From a virus: DNA of 24,243 nt. This document shows, one piece after another, positions 5,337 to 23,428 of the stretch (positions within the stretch are counted from its first letter, which is position 1; every line of letters starts with the position of its first letter). The stretch covers positions 1 through 24,243 of IMG/VR virus record IMGVR_UViG_3300036770_004857. One strand, 5' to 3'. The translations under genes and the position numbers were made by a program. The notes below the pieces were generated by a model. That model ran no database searches. It was given only the letters and a program-made list of their open reading frames with translations, and was not told the DNA's origin.

Positions 5337-7160
5337 ATGTTTCACCATATGCAGCAAAATATTGAGCCAGAAGAAGAGTTACCAAAAGGCGTTATACTGC
5401 GCGACTTTGATGACTTCACTACCTTACGCAATCAAATTTTTGATGGTGTTAAGAATTCTATGATCAAATCATTTCCTGTTAATTATGGAAGTGTGAGAAT
5501 GGAATTACATGATGTGGATTATGATGACAGAGACGACGTGCCCGTGTCAGAGCAGAAGAAAAACCTTCTGGAAAATAAATATATAACTAAAAAGTTAAGA
5601 GGTACGATAAAATTATTTGATACAACTAATGATCAGCTTTTAGAAGAGAAGCGCATATCATTGATGAAGGTACCTTACCTCACTAACCGTGGTACATTTA
5701 TTCATGGAGGTAATGAATATGCATCGATCATGCAGTCACGCCTTCTTCCCGGGGTCTACACTCGTAGACAGGCTAACGGAGAATTAGAAACTCAGTTCAA
5801 TGTCAAGCCAGGTACAGGAATTGGTTTCCGTGTTGGTTTTGAACCTGAGACTACACAGTATAGAGTGAAGATCTCGCAGGCCAATCTGCACCTGTATAGC
5901 TTATTAAAAGATTTAGGCACAAGTGATAAGGAATTGGAAAAAGCTTGGGGTCCTGAAATTTTCAGGGCTAATCAAATGAAGTATGATGCCAGAGTATTTG
6001 ATAAAGCATATGACCGTCTTGTATCTGGAAGGCAGAAGAAATTGGATAAGACCAGAGAGGATAAAATTGCTTCTGTTCGTAATGCTTTAGAAGCAGCACA
6101 AATTCATGCTCGTGTAGCGCAGAAGAATTTGCCTAATATGTTTGACCCGAAGATTGCTTCTCAGTGGGAAGCACAATGGCAGGGTAAACAGGCTGCTGAA
6201 AAAGTTATCGATGAGATGCCTTTCAATCCTGACTTAGAACCCGAGCAGGTCTATGAGAATTATTTTGATGAAGACGAAGGTGTTAAATCAGCTGCAGACA
6301 TGCAAGCATTAATGCAGGCACGCAGACACAGTTCCCAGGCTAAAGAAGAATATAAAAAGAAAACAGCTATTATGGCTGCAGCTTTAGCTCGTTATCCTGA
6401 AGAATTCATTGTTGACCAAAATGGACGGATGTCAGGTATTACTCATTTACCTACAGGTTTTAGAATTCATGTTCCTAAAGAAATTATTCCTCAAGGCGTG
6501 AAGCGTGTGTTCCAGGAGGACGAAGAAGATGTAGAAACAAACAAAGAAGCTGCCTGGCAAAATGTACCTAAAAAAGTATTAGATGCTATCTTAACTGGTA
6601 ACAAAGATTTATTGCAGCAATTAGGAAGAAGAGGCGGACAAGTAGCTGCTAAAGTAAAAGCTAATAAAAAATTAATGATGCAGAAACAAATGGATGAGCA
6701 TTTGCAACATCCTGATGTGCAGCATTTTTTATCTATTTTAGAAAAGGATGCTTCTACCAATGAAGATTTTATTCCAGATTATAGCCCTGAAGATATTCAG
6801 GACGCATATAATGCTATTTACGGGCACTACGGTCCCCGGTTAGCTTCTATGGATAAATGGCCAGAAGAATGGATTAAGAGTGATGTTGATCCGATGGGCT
6901 GGCTCCAGTGGTATGAACAATATAAATCTGGGCGTAGAACTGAGGATGACGAAAGGCAAATCAAGAGATGGAAGTCTTTTAAAGCCAGACATGGTTCTCA
7001 GTTTAAAAAGAACCCGACTCCTAGACGTGCTTTTGCTTTGCGTAACTGGGCTATCGATCCTTTAAAACTCATTGAAGATGAAGAAGTGCGTGGACAGCTA
7101 GCGCAAGCTATGGAATCTTATAAGCAACAAGCCTGGGATAAATACAATAAAGAAAAATAA
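5337..7160 (+). CDS. RNA polymerase beta-subunit-like N-terminus fused to a GRR-type domain
   Basis: Residues of about 40-195 follow the order of the bacterial RpoB N-terminal protrusion: FPVNYGSVRMELHDVDYDD, then KLRGTIKLF, then VPYLTNRGTFIHGGNEYAS and SRLLPGVYTRR. The last two match the conserved RpoB stretch 'P.MT..GTFIINGTERVIVSQL.RSPGV'. GFRVGFEPETTQYRV then resembles RpoB 'FEFDPKDNLFVRIDRR'. The catalytic half of RpoB is absent. The middle is charged and helical. Residues of about 515-570 form another conserved-looking domain (DPMGWLQWYEQYKSGRR, then DDERQIKRW), resembling a Trp/GRR/RQI-rich domain I recall from hypothetical proteins. The gene opens the structural module after a terminator. 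It could be a split beta subunit or a repurposed virion protein. The RpoB similarity is clear; the function is unknown. Confidence 0.75.
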   Translation: MFHHMQQNIEPEEELPKGVILRDFDDFTTLRNQIFDGVKNSMIKSFPVNYGSVRMELHDVDYDDRDDVPVSEQKKNLLENKYITKKLRGTIKLFDTTNDQLLEEKRISLMKVPYLTNRGTFIHGGNEYASIMQSRLLPGVYTRRQANGELETQFNVKPGTGIGFRVGFEPETTQYRVKISQANLHLYSLLKDLGTSDKELEKAWGPEIFRANQMKYDARVFDKAYDRLVSGRQKKLDKTREDKIASVRNALEAAQIHARVAQKNLPNMFDPKIASQWEAQWQGKQAAEKVIDEMPFNPDLEPEQVYENYFDEDEGVKSAADMQALMQARRHSSQAKEEYKKKTAIMAAALARYPEEFIVDQNGRMSGITHLPTGFRIHVPKEIIPQGVKRVFQEDEEDVETNKEAAWQNVPKKVLDAILTGNKDLLQQLGRRGGQVAAKVKANKKLMMQKQMDEHLQHPDVQHFLSILEKDASTNEDFIPDYSPEDIQDAYNAIYGHYGPRLASMDKWPEEWIKSDVDPMGWLQWYEQYKSGRRTEDDERQIKRWKSFKARHGSQFKKNPTPRRAFALRNWAIDPLKLIEDEEVRGQLAQAMESYKQQAWDKYNKEK

Positions 7161-7165
7161 TACTT

Positions 7166-8515
7166 ATGCCAGAAAGTAAAGATTTCAATTTATCTGATTA
7201 CATTACATTATCTCTGCCTGTAGTTGGAGATCAACTGTGGGCATTGAAACGTAAGCTTTTGGGGCAGAATACATATACTACAGCCATTGATGCTGCCATT
7301 CGCGGCGATTCACATGGTGTATCTAAAATATCGCCTTTATTAGTGGCAGGGCTTATTGCTAGTCAAGGTCACAAACTTCCTGGCATGTTACCAGGTTCAG
7401 AGTTTAGAAAATTTTTACGTCCTATGATAGGACGTACTGGCACTAGAGTGTTTGGCGCTAAAGCAAAACCTATACTTGCTTCTATTTTATCCATACCTGC
7501 TACGCAAGGTTTAGTTAGTGGCGAGTACACCAGAAAAGCTTTACAAGATAAATCCGCAAGTTTTTTAGGTATTGAAACGGAAGAAGCTAAAAAGAAAAGA
7601 TTAGCAGAGGCCAATTTGGCTGCGGCTTTGACGTCTGCGGGTATTCCAGCTGCAGCGGCGCAGGCGCATATGAAAGTATTAGTTCCTAATTTATATAAAA
7701 ATGTAGAGGATACATTAGACCCTAAACAAAAAGCTATTTTTGATCGTTTCATCAGACGTAAAGGATTTCAGACCGATGATTTTGGAGAGATGGTAGATGA
7801 AATCAAAACTAAGGATTTCAGCCGGGCCACGGCACAAGCGATGAATGCAGCTAAACAAAGAGCTAAATTATTAGGCCTGAATGTGGATTTTGAAGAGCTA
7901 ATGAGAGCTTCTAGCTCGATAGCAAATAATAAATATAATTCCTTTGGTGCTTTAAGTGATAGTTTAAAAAATATGTTAAGGTCGTCTGGACCTTTTTTTG
8001 CACCCAAAGATAAAGGTATCTTTGGTAAGTTATTAACTGCAATAGCTGACAAAGGATCTTCTAAAACTAAAGGGGTAAAAGGTTTTATTAATATGCCTAA
8101 AGAGTTTTTTGATAATTTAGGCGCTGCAGGTAATCCTTTAAAACCGGGAGTGTTGGCACACGAAGTGGGCCATGGTGTTGGTCCTTCAGTTTATATCAAG
8201 GGCTTAACTCGCCGTTTTTCGCAATTAGCGCCTGCTCTAGCTACAGGTAATATATTATTTACCAATGATGAAAATACTGCTAGAAACTCTGCTTTAATTT
8301 CTCCTTTGTTAAGTGCGCCTTTACTCGCTTCTGAATTTGATGCTTCTATGCGAGGATCTAATATTTTGAAAAAGTTGACTAAAAGTAATCTGACTAGGCT
8401 GCAAAGACTTTCGCCTTTCGTAGGCTTACCTACTTACGCCGCATTTGCTACCTCTCCGATACTCGCATATTTAACAAAAAAGAAAATGGATGGCTTTGAT
8501 AAGAAACAGGCATGA
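7166..8515 (+). CDS. Membrane-associated zinc metallopeptidase-like protein
   Basis: A 449-residue protein with a zincin signature: LAHEVGHG gives H332, E333 and H336, and ASEFDASMRG supplies E390 as a plausible third ligand about 54 residues later, the arrangement seen in M48-like gluzincins. Hydrophobic stretches lie around residues 55-66, 100-115, 375-390 and 418-436 (FVGLPTYAAFATSPILAYL), so it is probably membrane-associated or crosses the membrane during ejection. It begins 5 nt after the RpoB-like gene and overlaps the next gene by 4 nt (ATGA). Its place in the structural module suggests a virion protease, for prohead maturation or envelope passage. Prohead proteases are usually serine enzymes, so envelope processing seems at least as likely. 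Confidence 0.65.
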   Translation: MPESKDFNLSDYITLSLPVVGDQLWALKRKLLGQNTYTTAIDAAIRGDSHGVSKISPLLVAGLIASQGHKLPGMLPGSEFRKFLRPMIGRTGTRVFGAKAKPILASILSIPATQGLVSGEYTRKALQDKSASFLGIETEEAKKKRLAEANLAAALTSAGIPAAAAQAHMKVLVPNLYKNVEDTLDPKQKAIFDRFIRRKGFQTDDFGEMVDEIKTKDFSRATAQAMNAAKQRAKLLGLNVDFEELMRASSSIANNKYNSFGALSDSLKNMLRSSGPFFAPKDKGIFGKLLTAIADKGSSKTKGVKGFINMPKEFFDNLGAAGNPLKPGVLAHEVGHGVGPSVYIKGLTRRFSQLAPALATGNILFTNDENTARNSALISPLLSAPLLASEFDASMRGSNILKKLTKSNLTRLQRLSPFVGLPTYAAFATSPILAYLTKKKMDGFDKKQA

Positions 8516-9237
8516 AAAGATCACAAGTAGACGAAATCCTTTCAAAAGTCAAAAAACAAGCCTCAGCCGTCGCTAAGGTTCGTTCTATTCTGCCTAATCG
8601 TAAAATTGATAATAATGACAATGGTATCCCGGATGACGAAGAGGAATATGTTCCTGTAGGTTTAAAGGGTTTGGTATCTGCTTCTCAGAAGCTTCTTGCC
8701 ATTAATCGGGGATTGGATAAACCCGATGAACGTGATAGTTTATTATTTAAACGAATCCTCACCACGGACAGATTATTATCTGAACGTGTAAGACTTGATA
8801 GTGACAGAGTGCGCGGAGCTATGCTTCCACTAATTGCCCGGCACAAGAATCTTAAAGCTGTAGGTCCTTTTGCATTTGATTCCTACATGGAGAAGTTCCT
8901 GATCGGGAATCCTTTGTCTTCTCCCTTGGAAGAAATTAATCCGCTGCATCTGTTAGAGCAATCCAGAAGAGCTACCCAGATGGGTCCGGGAGGTATTGGT
9001 ACTGATAACGCCATTACTGAAGACATGCAGGCTATTCGGACTGATCAGTTTGGATTTCTGTCTAGCTTGGAGGGTCCAGAAAGCGAGAAGATTGGTATCG
9101 ATACAAGAATGGCCTGGGGATCTAAAATTGGGTCTGATGGTAAACCTTATCAGAAATTTTATAATCGTAAAACAAAAAAATACCAGTGGATGAGTCCTGA
9201 AGATCTTGATGGTCTCACTGTAAAACTCCCGGATTAA
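8512..9237 (+). CDS. Hypothetical structural-module protein, 241 aa
   Basis: Not recognised. The N-terminus is a basic amphipathic helix (KRSQVDEILSKVKKQASAVAKV), followed by an acidic segment NDNGIPDDEEE that resembles short calcium-binding repeats of the D-x-N-x-D-G type. The C-terminal end (GSDGKPYQKFYNRKTKKYQW) is basic and aromatic. There are no membrane segments. It starts on the ATGA overlap with the metallopeptidase-like gene and ends one base before the lysozyme gene, so the three are probably translated together. A tail or baseplate role is plausible from position only. Confidence 0.65.
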   Translation: MKRSQVDEILSKVKKQASAVAKVRSILPNRKIDNNDNGIPDDEEEYVPVGLKGLVSASQKLLAINRGLDKPDERDSLLFKRILTTDRLLSERVRLDSDRVRGAMLPLIARHKNLKAVGPFAFDSYMEKFLIGNPLSSPLEEINPLHLLEQSRRATQMGPGGIGTDNAITEDMQAIRTDQFGFLSSLEGPESEKIGIDTRMAWGSKIGSDGKPYQKFYNRKTKKYQWMSPEDLDGLTVKLPD

Positions 9238-10013: not shown

Positions 10014-10568
10014 ATGAAATCATCTGACAAGCTTTTAGCTTCTTCTTATTTAATTAAACGCGCTTATGCCAATTACCTAGAAATGGGACGACAAATAGGT
10101 GGAAGACCTGCCGCGCCTGCAGTTGATAACAATCAACCTGCACGCGCGTTTGGCGGCTACTTCACTGGCGGGCGTTTACAAGAAGGCCCCTCGCCAGCTG
10201 GCGCTAAAGCCTATGACCCTATGAACGTAATGGGACTTTTTAATTCGGCCCCTGCTGCTGCCGAGGCTCCCGCCCCTGCGGCTACTACCGCTCCTGAGAG
10301 AGGACCTATTCCTACAATTAGCGCCACCCCTTCGATGATGATGCCTACGGATGCAAAGCTCATGCCTAAAGCACAACCCGCTGCTGCAGGTAAAGCAGAC
10401 CTCAATAGTGTGTTTGCAAAATTTATGGGTTCTAGCTTTGATCCTAAAAGTAAATTAGATAGATCAAAGATGAAGTATCTTCAGACTTTAGCGGATCAGG
10501 GAATTGATTTATCTAAAGCTAGAGCTAGCGATATCTATGACACTCGTCGCGGCTACGGTAAATGGTAA
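10014..10568 (+). CDS. Tagged Pro/Ala-rich protein, 184 aa
   Basis: Residues 1-17 (MKSSDKLLASSYLIKRA) align without gaps with the N-termini of the lysozyme at 9239 and the small protein at 14908. The centre (about 50-125) is low-complexity Pro/Ala with scattered Met. The C-terminal 55 residues (DLNSVFAKFMGSSFDPKSK, then KMKYLQTLADQGIDLSKARASD) are charged and helical and look like a small folded domain. No enzyme motif is present. The architecture of tag, flexible linker and compact domain parallels the lysozyme, which suggests that both are delivered to the same virion compartment. The family is not recognised. Confidence 0.7.
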   Translation: MKSSDKLLASSYLIKRAYANYLEMGRQIGGRPAAPAVDNNQPARAFGGYFTGGRLQEGPSPAGAKAYDPMNVMGLFNSAPAAAEAPAPAATTAPERGPIPTISATPSMMMPTDAKLMPKAQPAAAGKADLNSVFAKFMGSSFDPKSKLDRSKMKYLQTLADQGIDLSKARASDIYDTRRGYGKW

Positions 10569-12699: not shown

Positions 12700-14511
12700 A
12701 TGGTTAACTATCCCGGCGACAATGACGCATTTGCAATTTGGACAGGTAAGAACCGAGTCTTTGCAGATCCCTTTCTTCTTCCCAGTAGCACAGCTATTCC
12801 GACTGAACTCCAGTCAGCTCTGGACTTCTGCTTATTCCTTTATTATTTAAATCCTCTTTATCGTCGCGCTTCGACTCGAGTAATTAGTCACTTTGTTACT
12901 GACATTGATTTTGTAGGTAAAGATGGCGACCAAGATGAAAGAGATGAGTTTAAAAACTTCCTGATTAATGACCTGGATATTTTCGGGGCATTACTTGAAG
13001 TAGGTCAGGAGTGGGCGTGTTACGGTAATGCATTCCTTAGACTCCATCTTCCTTTTGACCGTGTACTTGTTGACCATAGAGACGGTAAATATAAGGAGTA
13101 TGCGCTGCCTATGTTCGGAGCGGATGTGAAGTATGATTACAAGGCCATGAAATACGATGTGCCTGATCCTACTACCTTTGACAGACCGAAGGATAAAAGA
13201 TCTAGAGTTAAACTTGATTTCATTGACCGACCGTCTCGGGATAAGTCCCGCATCAGACTTCGTAAAATCGATCCTCGTCAGGTTGTGTTGCAGCACTCAT
13301 TTATGAGTGGTAAGCAACAAATGATTTATCGTTTTGAACCTGAGTGGGTTACTATGATTAAAAATAGTATCATGTATCAGGTTAACGAGACGCCGATGAG
13401 CATGCTCAAGGCTATTGCTCTTGAACAGGACTTTCTGTTCAATGAAGGGCAAGTATTTCATTTTAAAGCGCCTACAATTTCTGGTGTATCTAACTATGGG
13501 TGGGGACTACCAGAAACCATTGCTAACTTCAGGCATATTCACCAGTTACAGGTTCTCCGTAAGATTGATGAATCGGTAGGTTTGGATTATATGCTGCCCT
13601 TCCGTATGTTTCACCCTGTACCTTCGGCGCAGGCGAGTGATCCTATGAACTATATGCTTCTGAACCGTTGGGGCTCAGAAATCAAAGAGGTGATCAAGCG
13701 TCGTCGCCTTGATCCTTTCGCTATGCATGCCCTACCCTTCCCGGTTAGTTATCAGGAGTTTGGCGCGCAGGGTAAAAACTTAGCGCCTAAAGAACTAGTT
13801 GAGTATCATAATAATGTTCTTCTTGATTCTATGGGGTATCCTGCAGAATTATTCAAAGGTTCTTTGCAGGTTCAGCAGATTCCGACAGCTGTTCGTCTGT
13901 TTGAAAATTCATTCCATTTCGTTCACCAAGGGTTTGATAGAATTGTGAAATGGGTATCTGGTCGTATTTGTGACTACATCGGGCAGCAACGCCTGGAAAC
14001 GTCGCTTCAGCTGCCTCGCCTTGCGGACGACCTTGAGCGTCAGCGTGTTTATATGCAATTGGCTGCAGGCGCTGAAATTCCTCGCTCTATTGCTTACGGT
14101 CCCTTCGGCATCAAAGACCCTGTGGAAGCTGCTAAACAGCGTGCTCAGGAAGATATCGAAATTCAGAAGGAGCAGATGAAGCTACAGTCTGATTTTCAGA
14201 GACAGCAGCAATTGGGATCTATGGATAGTATCTTGGCGCAACAAGCCCAACAAGGTGGTGGCGGTGGAAGTTCTCCTGCGGGCATGGAAGGCGCTGCAGG
14301 AGGTGGTGACATGAACCCGCTTGACATCCAGAATAAAGCTGCTGAATTGGCGCAGCAATGGTTGCAATTGCCTGTCGGTGAACGGCAGAAGCAAATGGCA
14401 GCTGTTCGCACTTCAAATCCTAACCTGCATGCAATGGCCAAGCAAAAGATGGAAGAAATGAGATCTGAAGCTGAAAGTCAAGGTAGGCAGGCGTTATCAC
14501 AACCAATGTAA
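12700..14511 (+). CDS. Portal protein
   Basis: Dodecameric head-vertex channel for DNA packaging and connection of head to tail (family knowledge). Typical portal features: an N-terminal segment NPLYRRASTRVISHFVTDIDF, followed by an alpha/beta clip/stem region (ALLEVGQEWACYGNAFLRLHLPF), a long wing region, and FHFKAPTISGVSNYGWGLPETIANFRHIHQLQVLRKID. The C-terminal 120 residues are Gln/Gly-rich (QQAQQGGGGGSSPAGM), as is common at portal C-termini. Length is 603 aa, in the range for T4-like or larger phages (roughly 500-650). The capsid and terminase genes are not in this window and are expected outside it. Confidence 0.85.
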   Translation: MVNYPGDNDAFAIWTGKNRVFADPFLLPSSTAIPTELQSALDFCLFLYYLNPLYRRASTRVISHFVTDIDFVGKDGDQDERDEFKNFLINDLDIFGALLEVGQEWACYGNAFLRLHLPFDRVLVDHRDGKYKEYALPMFGADVKYDYKAMKYDVPDPTTFDRPKDKRSRVKLDFIDRPSRDKSRIRLRKIDPRQVVLQHSFMSGKQQMIYRFEPEWVTMIKNSIMYQVNETPMSMLKAIALEQDFLFNEGQVFHFKAPTISGVSNYGWGLPETIANFRHIHQLQVLRKIDESVGLDYMLPFRMFHPVPSAQASDPMNYMLLNRWGSEIKEVIKRRRLDPFAMHALPFPVSYQEFGAQGKNLAPKELVEYHNNVLLDSMGYPAELFKGSLQVQQIPTAVRLFENSFHFVHQGFDRIVKWVSGRICDYIGQQRLETSLQLPRLADDLERQRVYMQLAAGAEIPRSIAYGPFGIKDPVEAAKQRAQEDIEIQKEQMKLQSDFQRQQQLGSMDSILAQQAQQGGGGGSSPAGMEGAAGGGDMNPLDIQNKAAELAQQWLQLPVGERQKQMAAVRTSNPNLHAMAKQKMEEMRSEAESQGRQALSQPM

Positions 14512-17259: not shown

Positions 17260-18600
17260 ATGGAAAAGATCGCTTTAACTCCGCGCAGCAAAGAATTAAT
17301 TAAAAATTACCTTATTGGTGGTGCCGCTCTTGGTGGTTCTGGTGCGCTGCTTACATCTCTGATTAATTATATTAACACTCTGAAACAGCAGGCTCCTGTT
17401 GATCCAGAAAAAGAAGATGATGATACCCTTTATTTAAATGTTAATAAATCGGCTAATGAAGGCGCGGGCGCTATCGATTTAACGGCAGGTGGTTTGGCTT
17501 TGACTGGCGGTCTTTTGTCTACACTTGGTACATATGCGCTAGTTCGTAAGTTGTATCAAAATATTAAGCGTCAGCAATTACAAGAGCAGCTTGATCAAGC
17601 GCAGCAGTCTTTTCTCTCCTCGGCGGAGCAAGAAGCGCAGACTAAGAAAGCTGAAGAAGCAGGCAAGCCTATGGGACTTGCAGAATTAACCTGGTCTGCC
17701 CCTGTGGCATTTGCTTTACTTAGCGCTATTGCAGCTGGTGCTCTTACTAACAAAGCTTTAGACAAGACCTTCCCGAGAGTTAAGAAGCCCAAGGATACTG
17801 CGCCTAAGAGAATTGTTATTCGCAAAACTCCTGAGCAGGAAATGGAAGAAGAAAAAATGGCCTACGATAAGGTAGCCGCCGCCGAACAGGCTGACGACGC
17901 TATGGAATTCCTAATTCATCTTTGCATGGGTAGTAAGTCTGCGGCGCAGTCAGAGCTGGTAGATATCGTTCATGCTGCTGCTCAAGGTAGAGGCCCGGAG
18001 TTTGTTACTAACGTCTTGGAATATGGTTTTGATGCGGCCATGGACACTATCAAAGGCGCATCAGAAATTGACATCACTCCTGAACAGAAACAATTAGCTA
18101 TTAGCTATTGTGTAAAGAGCGCAACATTAAATCCTGTAGTTTCCTTATTGGCGGCTGCTGAGTATAATGACATGGCTCCTAGATTTACTAAAATTGCTAG
18201 TCTGCAGAGTGATGAATGTTTAGATACTTTATTAAAGATTGCTGGTGCTATTGGTGCCCTCAACAGATCTGAAATGGTTAACTCTGTTTCAGATATTTTT
18301 GAAGTTACCAAACAAGCGAATGAAATGACGCTTGAGGAAATCCTGGCGTTAGTAAATAAAATGAAAGGTCAGGGCGCTCATACATCTGAAGAAGATGATA
18401 TTGAACAAAATGAAGATTTAAATTCTGAAGACAGTATTGACTCTAAAGATGAAAAGCAGGTAAACGACCGCAAGCCGTTTGCCAATCCAAATACTACGCC
18501 TGACATAATTGACGAATTATCTGAAGATGATGACTTGATTGATCAGGCAATGTCTGCTCCTGTTACTCCTGCCAAAGCAGTAGCAGCAGAAAACAAATGA
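17260..18600 (+). CDS. Gly/Ala-rich multi-segment membrane protein, 446 aa
   Basis: Hydrophobic blocks lie at about residues 17-37 (YLIGGAALGGSGALLTSLINY), 72-96 (AIDLTAGGLALTGGLLSTLGTYALV) and 147-165 (APVAFALLSAIAAGALT), separated by a Gln/Glu-rich coiled-coil-like segment (IKRQQLQEQLDQAQQSF). The C-terminal half is soluble and helical, ending in a very acidic tail (EEDDIEQNEDLNSEDSIDS). The family is not recognised. The layout of glycine-zipper helices plus a long soluble domain fits an internal virion or ejection protein. The stop overlaps the ATG of the DUF1064-like nuclease (ATGA). Confidence 0.7.
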   Translation: MEKIALTPRSKELIKNYLIGGAALGGSGALLTSLINYINTLKQQAPVDPEKEDDDTLYLNVNKSANEGAGAIDLTAGGLALTGGLLSTLGTYALVRKLYQNIKRQQLQEQLDQAQQSFLSSAEQEAQTKKAEEAGKPMGLAELTWSAPVAFALLSAIAAGALTNKALDKTFPRVKKPKDTAPKRIVIRKTPEQEMEEEKMAYDKVAAAEQADDAMEFLIHLCMGSKSAAQSELVDIVHAAAQGRGPEFVTNVLEYGFDAAMDTIKGASEIDITPEQKQLAISYCVKSATLNPVVSLLAAAEYNDMAPRFTKIASLQSDECLDTLLKIAGAIGALNRSEMVNSVSDIFEVTKQANEMTLEEILALVNKMKGQGAHTSEEDDIEQNEDLNSEDSIDSKDEKQVNDRKPFANPNTTPDIIDELSEDDDLIDQAMSAPVTPAKAVAAENK

Positions 18601-19067
18601 GCGTACCACGTAATAAAAACTCAGCGGCCAAGCTTCTAGACCTTATAAACAAGAGTTCTAAGCGCGGGCGTTATAAAGTTTCGCCTAAAGAAGCGCGAAC
18701 ATACGAAGGTATTGTCTTTGACTCCAAATGGGAAGCAGAGACATATAAGCTATTGTCTACCTTATTACCTGAAGACGTACATATTCATCGGCAGGTAGAT
18801 TTCCTTTTACAGGAAAAGTTTAGAGCTCCCAATGGTAAAGCTGTTCGTGAGATTCATTATTCAGCAGACTTTGTAATTACCCGGGAGAAGGAACTAAAAG
18901 AGGATGTCATTCCTAATGATGCCTTTGTCATAGATTCCAAAGGGCATATTACTGATATATTCAAAATAAAGAATAAGCTGTTTATGTATAAATATCAGAC
19001 ACTTATTCATCAGGTAAAGTCTGCCAAGGATGTGGCAGCAGTTGTTGATTTATATAAGGCGCAATAA
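18597..19067 (+). CDS. DUF1064-type PD-(D/E)XK nuclease
   Basis: The sequence follows the DUF1064 layout of phage nucleases: FDSKWEAETYKLL (Glu46 after the first helix), an RQVDFLLQEKF strand, REIHYSADFVI (Asp91), and FVIDSKGHITDIFKIKNKLF (Asp113-x-Lys115, then Lys in the next helix). This is the PD-(D/E)XK metal site expected for a structure-specific endonuclease. Members of the family are small (about 120-160 aa), matching the 156 aa here. It begins on an ATGA overlap with the membrane protein gene and is the last gene before the RNA-rich region. The substrate, for example branched DNA during packaging or recombination, is inferred. Confidence 0.75.
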   Translation: MSVPRNKNSAAKLLDLINKSSKRGRYKVSPKEARTYEGIVFDSKWEAETYKLLSTLLPEDVHIHRQVDFLLQEKFRAPNGKAVREIHYSADFVITREKELKEDVIPNDAFVIDSKGHITDIFKIKNKLFMYKYQTLIHQVKSAKDVAAVVDLYKAQ

Positions 19068-19076
19068 CAAACATTA

Positions 19077-19096
19077 TTGTGTTATATAAATTTGTA
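19077..19096 (+). promoter_or_regulatory. Promoter-like 20-mer, copy 2
   Basis: TTGTGTTATATAAATTTGTA is identical over all 20 bases to the copy at 22769 and closely related to 4159. The conserved block is contiguous, with no separate -35 conserved upstream. A hairpin begins immediately at its 3' end, as if the RNA starts there. Confidence 0.6.
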
Positions 19097-19121
19097 TGGG
19101 TAGCAATTACCTATAAAGCAT

Positions 19122-19328
19122 ATGCATAACCATCCAAGAATAATCGGCATACTGGCGGCGAGGGAGTATATCCTTAGTCGCACCCCTGCGCCTGAAACGG
19201 TGCAGGAAATCAAAAGCATGGGTACTGTGCAGGCGCGTTCATCGTGCTTGTACGGTATCAAACTTCCGCCTTACGAACGGAAGTTGAAAAACGCACTAGG
19301 TAACGCTTTGCCTAGTATCTCCCTATAA
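19122..19328 (+). CDS. Possible small protein, 68 aa (may be non-coding)
   Basis: An ATG-started frame whose translation looks ordinary for a small basic protein (REYILSRTPAPETVQEIKSM, then YERKLKNALGNAL). It has no recognised domain and no Shine-Dalgarno sequence. It lies within a stretch that has its own promoter-like element and several hairpins, two of which (19261-19285 and 19295-19316) are wholly within this frame. Either a short mRNA has a structured 3' region, or the ORF is accidental within a structural RNA. I lean slightly towards the second. Confidence 0.3.
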   Translation: MHNHPRIIGILAAREYILSRTPAPETVQEIKSMGTVQARSSCLYGIKLPPYERKLKNALGNALPSISL

Positions 19329-19380
19329 AGGGATAACAACAAACACAGGTGGCAAATGTGTTGTTGGTTGCTAACACCCA

Positions 19381-19411
19381 GGCCCGCGTCGTAGCCACCA
19401 CGGCGCGGGCC
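19381..19411 (+). terminator. GC-rich hairpin between convergent genes
   Basis: GGCCCGCGTCG (19381-19391) pairs with CGGCGCGGGCC (19401-19411) around a 9-nt loop. Only a loose T-rich tail follows (gcatttcttt). It lies between the plus-strand unit and the end of the minus-strand HNH gene at 19420 and could stop transcription from either side. Its loop complements the loop of the preceding hairpin. Confidence 0.55.
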
Positions 19412-19419
19412 GCATTTCT

Positions 19420-19788
19420 TTATTCATATCTGTCGAGGAATTGCTTGTAGGCTTGCTCTTGTGTTAACTTATTTTTATTAATTAGATTACACATTTGAGC
19501 CATTACCTTTAAAGACAGATCAGGATGATGAATTTCAGAATGACAGTTATGGCAAACAAGAACGCACTTGTTCAATTCTTTTTCTGCGTGATCTACTGGC
19601 ATTTTAATTAGGTGACTTCCAGACAGAGCAGTTCCTTTTTCGTTAATATGATGAAAAGCCAAAGCAGCTAAATTCTTTTTGTAGCTGCATATCACACACT
19701 GTCCGCCAGCCTTTTTAATGAGATTGTATTTCCTTAATAATCTCGCCACTCTATTTCTTTTAACAGAAGAAGGTCGTCTTTTAGGCAT
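19420..19788 (-). CDS. HNH endonuclease
   Basis: Likely homing-type or free-standing HNH nuclease, the only confident minus-strand gene. Motifs: CVIC (Cys31, Cys34) and CHNC (Cys79, Cys82) form a structural zinc site. LAFHHINEKG (His46-His47) and ELNKCVLVCHNCHSEIHH supply the H, N and H residues. The basic N-terminus (MPKRRPSSVKRNRVARLLRKYNLIKKAGG) is typical of the family. I prefer this ATG (19788) to the longer frame from 19875, because a minus-strand TATAAT at 19878-19883 would start transcription at about 19871, downstream of that first ATG. Next to a tRNA cluster, it may promote spread or insertion of this region. Confidence 0.8.
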   Translation of the reverse strand: MPKRRPSSVKRNRVARLLRKYNLIKKAGGQCVICSYKKNLAALAFHHINEKGTALSGSHLIKMPVDHAEKELNKCVLVCHNCHSEIHHPDLSLKVMAQMCNLINKNKLTQEQAYKQFLDRYE

Positions 19789-19872
19789 TGCATAATATAC
19801 GATATGTAATATGTGCGGCAAGTCATCTTCGGAGCGGTGTCGTTTGCGCTCTTCGACCTCGAGTGAGGTTGA

Positions 19873-19926
19873 CATGCATTATATCAAATAAGTTCTTGCG
19901 CTAAGACTGATATTGTATAATGCATG
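19873..19926. promoter_or_regulatory. Divergent promoters inside an 11-bp inverted repeat
   Basis: CATGCATTATA (19873-19883) and TATAATGCATG (19916-19926) are exact reverse complements separated by 32 nt. Each arm carries a TATAAT facing outward: one drives the HNH gene leftward, the other the tRNAs rightward. On the plus strand TTCTTG at 19893-19898 is 17 nt upstream of TATAAT, and the predicted start near 19928 lies just before tRNA-Arg at 19937. Confidence 0.6.
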
Positions 19927-20194: not shown

Positions 20195-20523
20195 ATTTCC
20201 GCTCAACCAGAGATGCTAGTGCCCTCGCGGAATAGGCACGTACAGCTAGCATTTCACAATAGAGTCTGCTGTGTCTTTGCACAAGCCGAGAACTAAATAC
20301 GAGCTTAGACTTTCTTGTCTGAGTTTAGATTAGTTCATAGTACAAAACTGTGCATCCGGGCAAGGGTTTCGTTCGGACGTTTTGTAGCAGCAGCTGGGAG
20401 TGGGGTAGTAGACTGCAGTCAATGACTACCTCACTCCCCTCCAATTTTCTCGGCTAGGGGACAAGAGGCTCCATGCCTCGATCAAGGGAGTAATATCCTG
20501 AGACTTACCCCAGCTGGGATTCC
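20195..20523 (+). ncRNA. Candidate structured RNA in a gene-free gap of the tRNA cluster
   Basis: 329 nt without a convincing protein gene, GC-rich and full of complementary segments. TTCCGC (20197-20202) pairs with GCGGAA (20227-20232). ATGCTA-GTGCC (20213-20223) pairs with GGCAC (20235-20239) and TAGCAT (20247-20252). The two pairings cross, as in an H-type pseudoknot. Further stems: CTAAA and CTTAGAC with GTCTGAG and TTTAG (20293-20328); TACAAAAC/GTTTTGTA with inner TCCG/CGGA (20341-20386); a 14-bp stem 20396-20409 with 20425-20438; GAGGC/GCCTC (20465-20479). It is flanked by tRNAs and probably co-transcribed. It does not match the tmRNA layout. Large phage RNAs such as GOLLD and ROOL also sit beside tRNA genes but are much longer. 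Confidence 0.55.
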
Positions 20524-20524
20524 C

Positions 20525-22768: not shown

Positions 22769-22788
22769 TTGTGTTATATAAATTTGTA
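22769..22788 (+). promoter_or_regulatory. Promoter-like 20-mer, copy 3
   Basis: TTGTGTTATATAAATTTGTA, identical to 19077-19096. It lies 19 nt before the ATG at 22808. A short hairpin (AGCGC/GCGCT) follows immediately. Confidence 0.6.
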
Positions 22789-22807
22789 GCGCAGCGCGCT
22801 ATTTATT

Positions 22808-23428
22808 ATGAAACTACAACACTACCATGCTGAAAGTTTTCTGTCCTTGACCCATGAAGGGCAGGAAACTGGGAATAGGATCTGCCAAATTCTGGCGGAT
22901 ATGGATGCTTCGAGAAGCATTCAAAGAATCAAGCTGGACGTTAGTCCTGTGGCTCAGGAAGAGCAGCAAATTCTCAAACAGGCAATCGCTTGTGTGGAAT
23001 ACGCTGAGCTCGCCGCCATGGAATTGGCTGAGGTGACGGCGCGTCGGAAGATGCTACTGACTCAAGAGCATGTGACTCTAGCCGATCAGGCCCGTATACT
23101 GGGACTTCGATTGTACCGCAATCTGTGGGAGCTAACCCTCTCAGACAGCGACAGGAAGAACTTACGTTGCCTTATTAGGCGCGTGGCCTCTCTGTCCGTG
23201 TGGGAAGATCTGCCTGCTACAATGGCTGGCAAGTCATATGATCATGTCAGTAACGGCATGGATGGTACCATTGCGTACCAGCATGCTTTTGGCGTTTCTT
23301 TCATCGAGTACAAAGCAGGCAAAGCCGAATTTGGCTGGACTCTGCTGCGAGATACGCTGGAAGATAATGTTCTACTGGCTCGTTCGGCCTCTGAGGCTGC
23401 TGCGGCTTATATGCTGCCTGTTACATGA
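22808..23428 (+). CDS. Hypothetical protein, 206 aa
   Basis: Not recognised. Helical and Ala/Leu/Arg-rich (QQILKQAIACVEYAELAAMELAEVTARRKML) with no cysteine cluster or membrane segment. It is visibly richer in GC than the structural genes, with codons such as CTG, GCC and CGC. That difference could reflect recent acquisition or different expression needs. It is driven by the conserved 20-mer at 22769, and its stop overlaps the next start (ATGA). Confidence 0.65.
   Translation: MKLQHYHAESFLSLTHEGQETGNRICQILADMDASRSIQRIKLDVSPVAQEEQQILKQAIACVEYAELAAMELAEVTARRKMLLTQEHVTLADQARILGLRLYRNLWELTLSDSDRKNLRCLIRRVASLSVWEDLPATMAGKSYDHVSNGMDGTIAYQHAFGVSFIEYKAGKAEFGWTLLRDTLEDNVLLARSASEAAAAYMLPVT

Follow-up and report, generated by a model that had tools for sequence, protein, structure and literature searches.

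A structured mRNA with complementary terminal loops in an uncultured phage group: a candidate expression cassette with fast-evolving cargo

Introduction

What does a virus encode in a short, strongly folded stretch between two of its genes: an RNA, a protein, or both? The question is raised by a virus record of 24,243 bases with phage-like genes (the whole stretch analyzed here, hereafter the window). The initial annotation had described, behind a promoter-like 20-mer, a series of hairpins ending in two whose loops are complementary, and had read it as a candidate structured RNA whose 68-codon open reading frame (ORF) might be incidental. In this study, we analyzed the folding, coding potential, promoter and relatives of this region, and weighed several explanations of its function.

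Results

Locus and relatives

The site lies between a DUF1064 gene and an HNH gene (Table 1). The same DUF1064 gene was present in six viral contigs (protein identity 74-100%). One relative (L004) was identical to the window over the site, and five were distinct (L005, L006, L007/L027, L008 and L009); the window and these five are called the six sequences below. In each of the five the site likewise followed the DUF1064 gene, and the promoter, as well as a convergent gene on the far side, was present in all six contigs. The module with complementary (kissing) loops occurred once per phage record. Among the sequences searched, the whole arrangement was confined to one uncultured phage group, and a DNA search of 50,697 phage records gave no match to the region.

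Extra segments were inserted ahead of the site in L006 and L007. The L006 insertion contained, between the DUF1064 gene and the site, an ORF (5490-6065) with repeated KHTPETKEKI motifs that resembled NUMOD3 by eye and had a promoter variant and a leader hairpin of its own.

Table 1. Coordinates of features in the window and of a second structured RNA in related phages
Feature	Record	Positions	Strand	Remarks
Gene matching phage portal protein	Window	12700-14511		21% identity
DUF1064 / Holliday-junction-resolvase-like gene	Window	18597-19067		Adjoins the site upstream
Promoter-like 20-mer TTGTGTTATATAAATTTGTA	Window	19077-19096	+	Holds TAAATTTG; fits Bacteroidota -7 element TAnnTTTG
Leader hairpin TATGGGTA/TACCTATA	Window	19095-19115	+	Leaders behind promoter family
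68-codon gene	Window	19122-19328	+	Function unassigned; no Shine-Dalgarno; frame-keeping homologues
ORF-internal hairpin	Window	19155-19181	+	MFE; consensus fold of window, L005 and L008
ORF-internal hairpin	Window	19185-19206	+	MFE; consensus of window, L005 and L008
ORF-internal hairpin, 17-bp	Window	19221-19259	+	Two shorter hairpins in L005 and L008
ORF-internal hairpin	Window	19261-19285	+	At length-variable protein stretch; other stem letters in L005 and L008
Hairpin H7	Window	19295-19316	+	Over last codons (LGxxLPS); L027 keeps stem with other letters
Hairpin H8	Window	19320-19333	+	Stop codon in loop; kept in L005, L008 and L006
Hairpin K1	Window	19337-19366	+	Loop GGTGGCAAA at 19348-19356; kept in six sequences
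Hairpin K2	Window	19381-19411	+	11-bp G+C-rich stem (19381-19391 with 19401-19411); loop TAGCCACCA at 19392-19400; read as intrinsic terminator
HNH gene	Window	19420-19875	-	Convergent to the site
tRNAs	Window	from 19937 on
Second structured RNA	L022	5258-5790
Second structured RNA	L046	7418-7850
Second structured RNA	L048	from 7268
Second structured RNA	L018	from 1780	-
Second structured RNA	L050	from 5266
Second structured RNA	L032	from 6541	-

Overall fold

The minimum free energy (MFE) of the region 19095-19421 was -137 kcal/mol; comparison with 100 dinucleotide shuffles gave a z of -8.7, and 19095-19328 by itself had a z of -6.2. The hairpins and both loops lay exactly where the initial annotation had placed them, and its description of a G+C-rich region in AT-rich surroundings was accurate (G+C 0.47-0.51 vs 0.29-0.43 just upstream). 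In the window MFE fold, the leader paired with the linker between K1 and K2; the L005 and L008 folds lacked this pairing, and it was rejected.

A scan of the window against Rfam 15 returned only tRNAs above the gathering threshold. In E-value mode the best matches to the region were PYLIS_2 (16.6 of 36 bits) and tfoR (12.3 of 70 bits), neither of which reached that threshold, and no family for the site was found in the related records either. The proposal of a structured RNA outside known families thus came through the Rfam comparison suggested along with it. The GOLLD and ROOL RNAs are also highly structured phage RNAs near tRNA genes; in contrast, the present transcript is short (~320 nt), has no Rfam match and contains a real gene. 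The GOLLD and ROOL models matched neither the window nor the region, which also falls short of the large size of these RNAs.

The 3' module

Judging from the six sequences, the K1 and K2 hairpins and the complementarity of their loops are conserved. All six had the stable, G+C-rich 11-bp K2 stem, three pairs of which showed compensatory changes (both sides changed) among the five similar sequences. Loop complementarity extended over 6 nt: GGTGGC/GCCACC in four sequences, GGTGGC/GCCATC (one G-U) in L005 and GCTAGG/CCTAGC in L009. In the latter, K2 kept its 11-bp stem and a 9-nt loop (TTCCTAGCA replacing TAGCCACCA) in the same register, and K1 bore GCTAGG where the others have GGTGGC, which restored the 6 bp at -10.3 kcal/mol; mixed partners (L009 with the window) reached -4.2 and -2.8 kcal/mol. 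In all six sequences, loops shuffled at the same composition rarely matched the pairing of the real loops (p 0.0005-0.002 for each), and by simple counting a 12-nt K1 loop would contain the complement of one fixed 6-mer by chance in ~7/4096 cases. Because the L009 letters differ entirely yet sit in the same K2 register, covariation supports a kissing pair; it comprises one complete 6-nt replacement, found in one lineage only (L009), and one G-U. Thus, the earlier suggestion that the GGTGGC and GCCACC loops could kiss gained from a search of relatives, five distinct members of which carry the site with paired loops, including one that still pairs with replaced letters.

When all loci compared were scanned on both strands for neighbouring hairpins with complementary loops, the site and one other were recovered. 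The other (L022, L046) was judged from its L022 copy to be chance, the L022 site being partly coding and its partner not being kept in L018. A covariance model (R1) built with L009 left out matched that record at this site alone (E 0.007, these E-values being rough). A weak match at 10118 of G007 fell inside a coding-like stretch, and matches to the K2 pattern on viral contigs outside the group were unrelated coincidences.

K2 resembles an intrinsic (Rho-independent) terminator in that an 11-bp G+C-rich hairpin is followed by a T-rich stretch (GCATTTCTTTATT) at the end of the transcription unit. It differs in that its 9-nt loop would pair with the loop of the preceding hairpin, a complementarity kept by covariation, and in that the T-run is interrupted, as are those of the relatives. 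The apparent design is a terminator in which a conserved contact with the loop of the hairpin upstream holds the terminator loop, and a limited literature search revealed no precedent for a terminator with a kissing upstream hairpin.

The 68-codon gene and its internal hairpins

The ORF, which had been thought possibly incidental, is, by its pattern of substitutions, a real gene under protein selection. Homologues in L005, L006 and L008 preserved the frame, with in-frame indels, and changes fell mostly at third codon positions (21/9/39 at the three positions between the window and L005, and 18/9/37 between the window and L008). The dN was ~0.25 and the dS 1.45 or saturated; frame conservation and synonymous excess were both those of a protein-coding sequence. 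Since the ORF is a conserved protein gene, the region is a structured mRNA and not a plain noncoding RNA. In L027, an ORF of 83 codons was mostly different or unrelated, with a similar end over 14 residues. No recognisable part of the ORF was found in L009, where an ATG frame of 46 codons, beginning close to the predicted start of transcription, was all that was seen; in this most diverged relative, the gene is apparently lost or replaced. The small protein had no Pfam, PHROG or phage-record relative, a scan of host genomes gave no confirmed match, and its AlphaFold model was poor (pLDDT 60, pTM 0.26).

The ORF is itself rich in hairpins. Compared with permutations that fix both protein and codon content, the fold z was -3.3 in the window and -4.2 in L008; the excess was weak in L005 (-1.2), and L006 (-1.4) and L027 (-1.6) showed none. 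As a control, 32 segments of other window genes gave a mean z of -0.8 (sd 1.1), the minimum (-2.85) being the first 207 nt of a 206-codon gene behind the same promoter. When structures were projected among the window, L005 and L008, four of the six directions gave a retention exceeding the codon-permuted null (p 0.001-0.026), including the L008 structure on the window and on L005 (p 0.002 and 0.001). Projections to or from L006 were not retained above the null, and L027 had a different stem at the H8 position. Retention of the inner stems is therefore limited to the close group. The initial annotation had named homologues that keep the frame and lose the stems and loop complementarity as the finding that would speak against its RNA: neither the 3' module nor the leader behaved in this way, and the ORF-internal stems did so in part, not being kept in L006.

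Promoter, leader hairpin and host

The promoter-like 20-mer occurred twice in the window (0.02 expected), with an identical copy at 22769-22788. In nine related records the promoter pattern was present in 2-8 copies per record, on a single strand, and the reversed pattern used as a control gave 0. The Bacteroidota sigma-ABfr promoter consists of TTTG and, as its -7 consensus, TAnnTTTG (PMC6847099). The latter is matched by TAAATTTG at 19087 and 22779, which recurs in most phage copies, and is included in TATATAAATTTG. The phage promoters differ in lacking TTTG near -33, which was absent at the expected distance in both window copies; they have a conserved GTGTTATA just upstream instead, and some copies have TATAATTG. 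No clear Shine-Dalgarno sequence was seen at the gene starts inspected. Judging from the -7 element and the lack of Shine-Dalgarno sequences, the host is probably a member of the Bacteroidota (PMC6847099).

The first 26 nt of 29 distinct leaders of this promoter family in the group had a mean MFE of -5.8 kcal/mol (-1.9 kcal/mol when shuffled), and 22 of the 29 had p <= 0.1. As most leaders in the group fold, with stem letters that differ widely, the leader hairpin belongs to the promoter class and not to the RNA of this site alone. The hairpin at 19095 had been said to start exactly where the transcript should begin, and its position was confirmed. In the Bacteroidota system the G of the -7 element sits at -5 (PMC6847099), so a promoter of this type would place the start closer to 19099 than to 19095; on the other hand, the first T and A are paired in many leaders, which argues for 19095.

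The second 20-mer of the window opens a further unit (22769-23428), with a leader hairpin (TAGCGCAGCGCGCTA) and the 206-codon gene, the function of which is unassigned.

Discussion

We lean, with modest confidence, towards a self-contained expression cassette of the phage, in which a stabilised transcript carries fast-evolving cargo. The two ends (promoter with leader, and K1 with K2) are constant and the inside varies, from the gene to a diverged gene (L027) and to no homologue (L009), which fits such a cassette. A promoter of the phage group would start a short transcript that opens with the leader hairpin and carries a small, fast-evolving, hairpin-rich gene (68 codons here). The loops of K1 and of the terminator hairpin K2 would then form a 6-bp pairing that locks the 3' end, and K2 would end transcription. 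Hairpins at RNA ends can protect against decay; here the two structured ends (leader hairpin and kissing 3' module) may shield the RNA from 5'- and 3'-directed decay, giving one defined, long-lived product that would be insulated from the convergent HNH gene. Several points weigh against this reading: the kissing letters are completely replaced in a single lineage only, the T-run after K2 is interrupted, and translation could be hindered by the strong structure of the ORF, which a role in stability alone would not require.

The same ORF structure, which exceeds the codon-permuted controls in the window and L008 and is kept from L008 in the window and L005, speaks for a dual-function RNA, in which the transcript encodes the small protein and also acts as RNA, through binding of a host or phage target or in a particle, with the kissing loops folding or switching the active RNA. 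L009, with no ORF homologue, yet keeps the promoter, the leader, a string of hairpins (z -4.6) and the kissing end, and in relatives the same promoter precedes an apparently noncoding structured RNA. However, L006 does not keep the inner hairpins, L009 showed no counterpart of them, all sequences share only the two ends, and L009 may be coding in view of its 46-codon ATG frame. We regard a dual function as rather unlikely, an RNA acting in trans being possible given the excess ORF structure and L009. Somewhat less probable again is that such transcripts form a new class of dual-function RNA in phages, with a small gene in a selected hairpin string, a kissing-locked terminator and an RNA active in the infected cell; if true, the gene could be dispensed with in the L009 lineage and the RNA retained.

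Two further explanations concern the loops themselves. The guanidine-II riboswitch also has two neighbouring hairpins (P1 and P2) with complementary loops (PMC9300104), a layout that would suit a regulated 3' end whose kissing contact is a switch, opened by a protein, a ligand or an antisense RNA to alter termination or turnover. The phage module differs from it in having no Rfam match, a 6-bp contact with replaceable letters and a position after a gene, at the terminator. The free replacement of the loop letters in L009 is hard to reconcile with loops that form a fixed ligand pocket, and the loop pairing competes with neither stem; we consider regulation of this kind quite improbable. Alternatively, the complementarity might be chance or might follow from features of the DNA itself (inverted repeats or protein sites). 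Five of the six sequences have nearly the same letters, so that the window pair, taken by itself, could go back to a single ancient accident, but the replacement of both partners in L009 with pairing restored in the same K2 loop register, together with the G-U in L005 and the compensatory changes in the K2 stem, renders this very improbable. Returning to the expression cassette, its kissing 3' end could serve as a compact RNA-stabilising element, and a strongly folded phage mRNA such as this can face protein and RNA constraints at once.

Other structured elements

In related phages, the same promoter was followed by a second type of structured RNA, the conserved domain of which spans ~105-129 nt (TTGCTCTTAAAGCGCCC...GACGGTTACAAGGCCGAA...TAAGAGCAA). 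It had no Rfam family at gathering level (sub-threshold matches only) and no long ORF was evident in most copies. Compensatory changes were found in 13 of its 38 consensus pairs, and it may represent a new family of noncoding RNAs in this phage group.

Two minor observations relate to the tRNA regions. In L007, a Group I intron match above the gathering score was found at 8449-8665, near the tRNA region of that phage. In the window, a G+C-rich stretch between tRNA genes (20195-20524; fold z -4.6), for which L008 had no more than a partial match, may contain degenerate tRNAs or another RNA.
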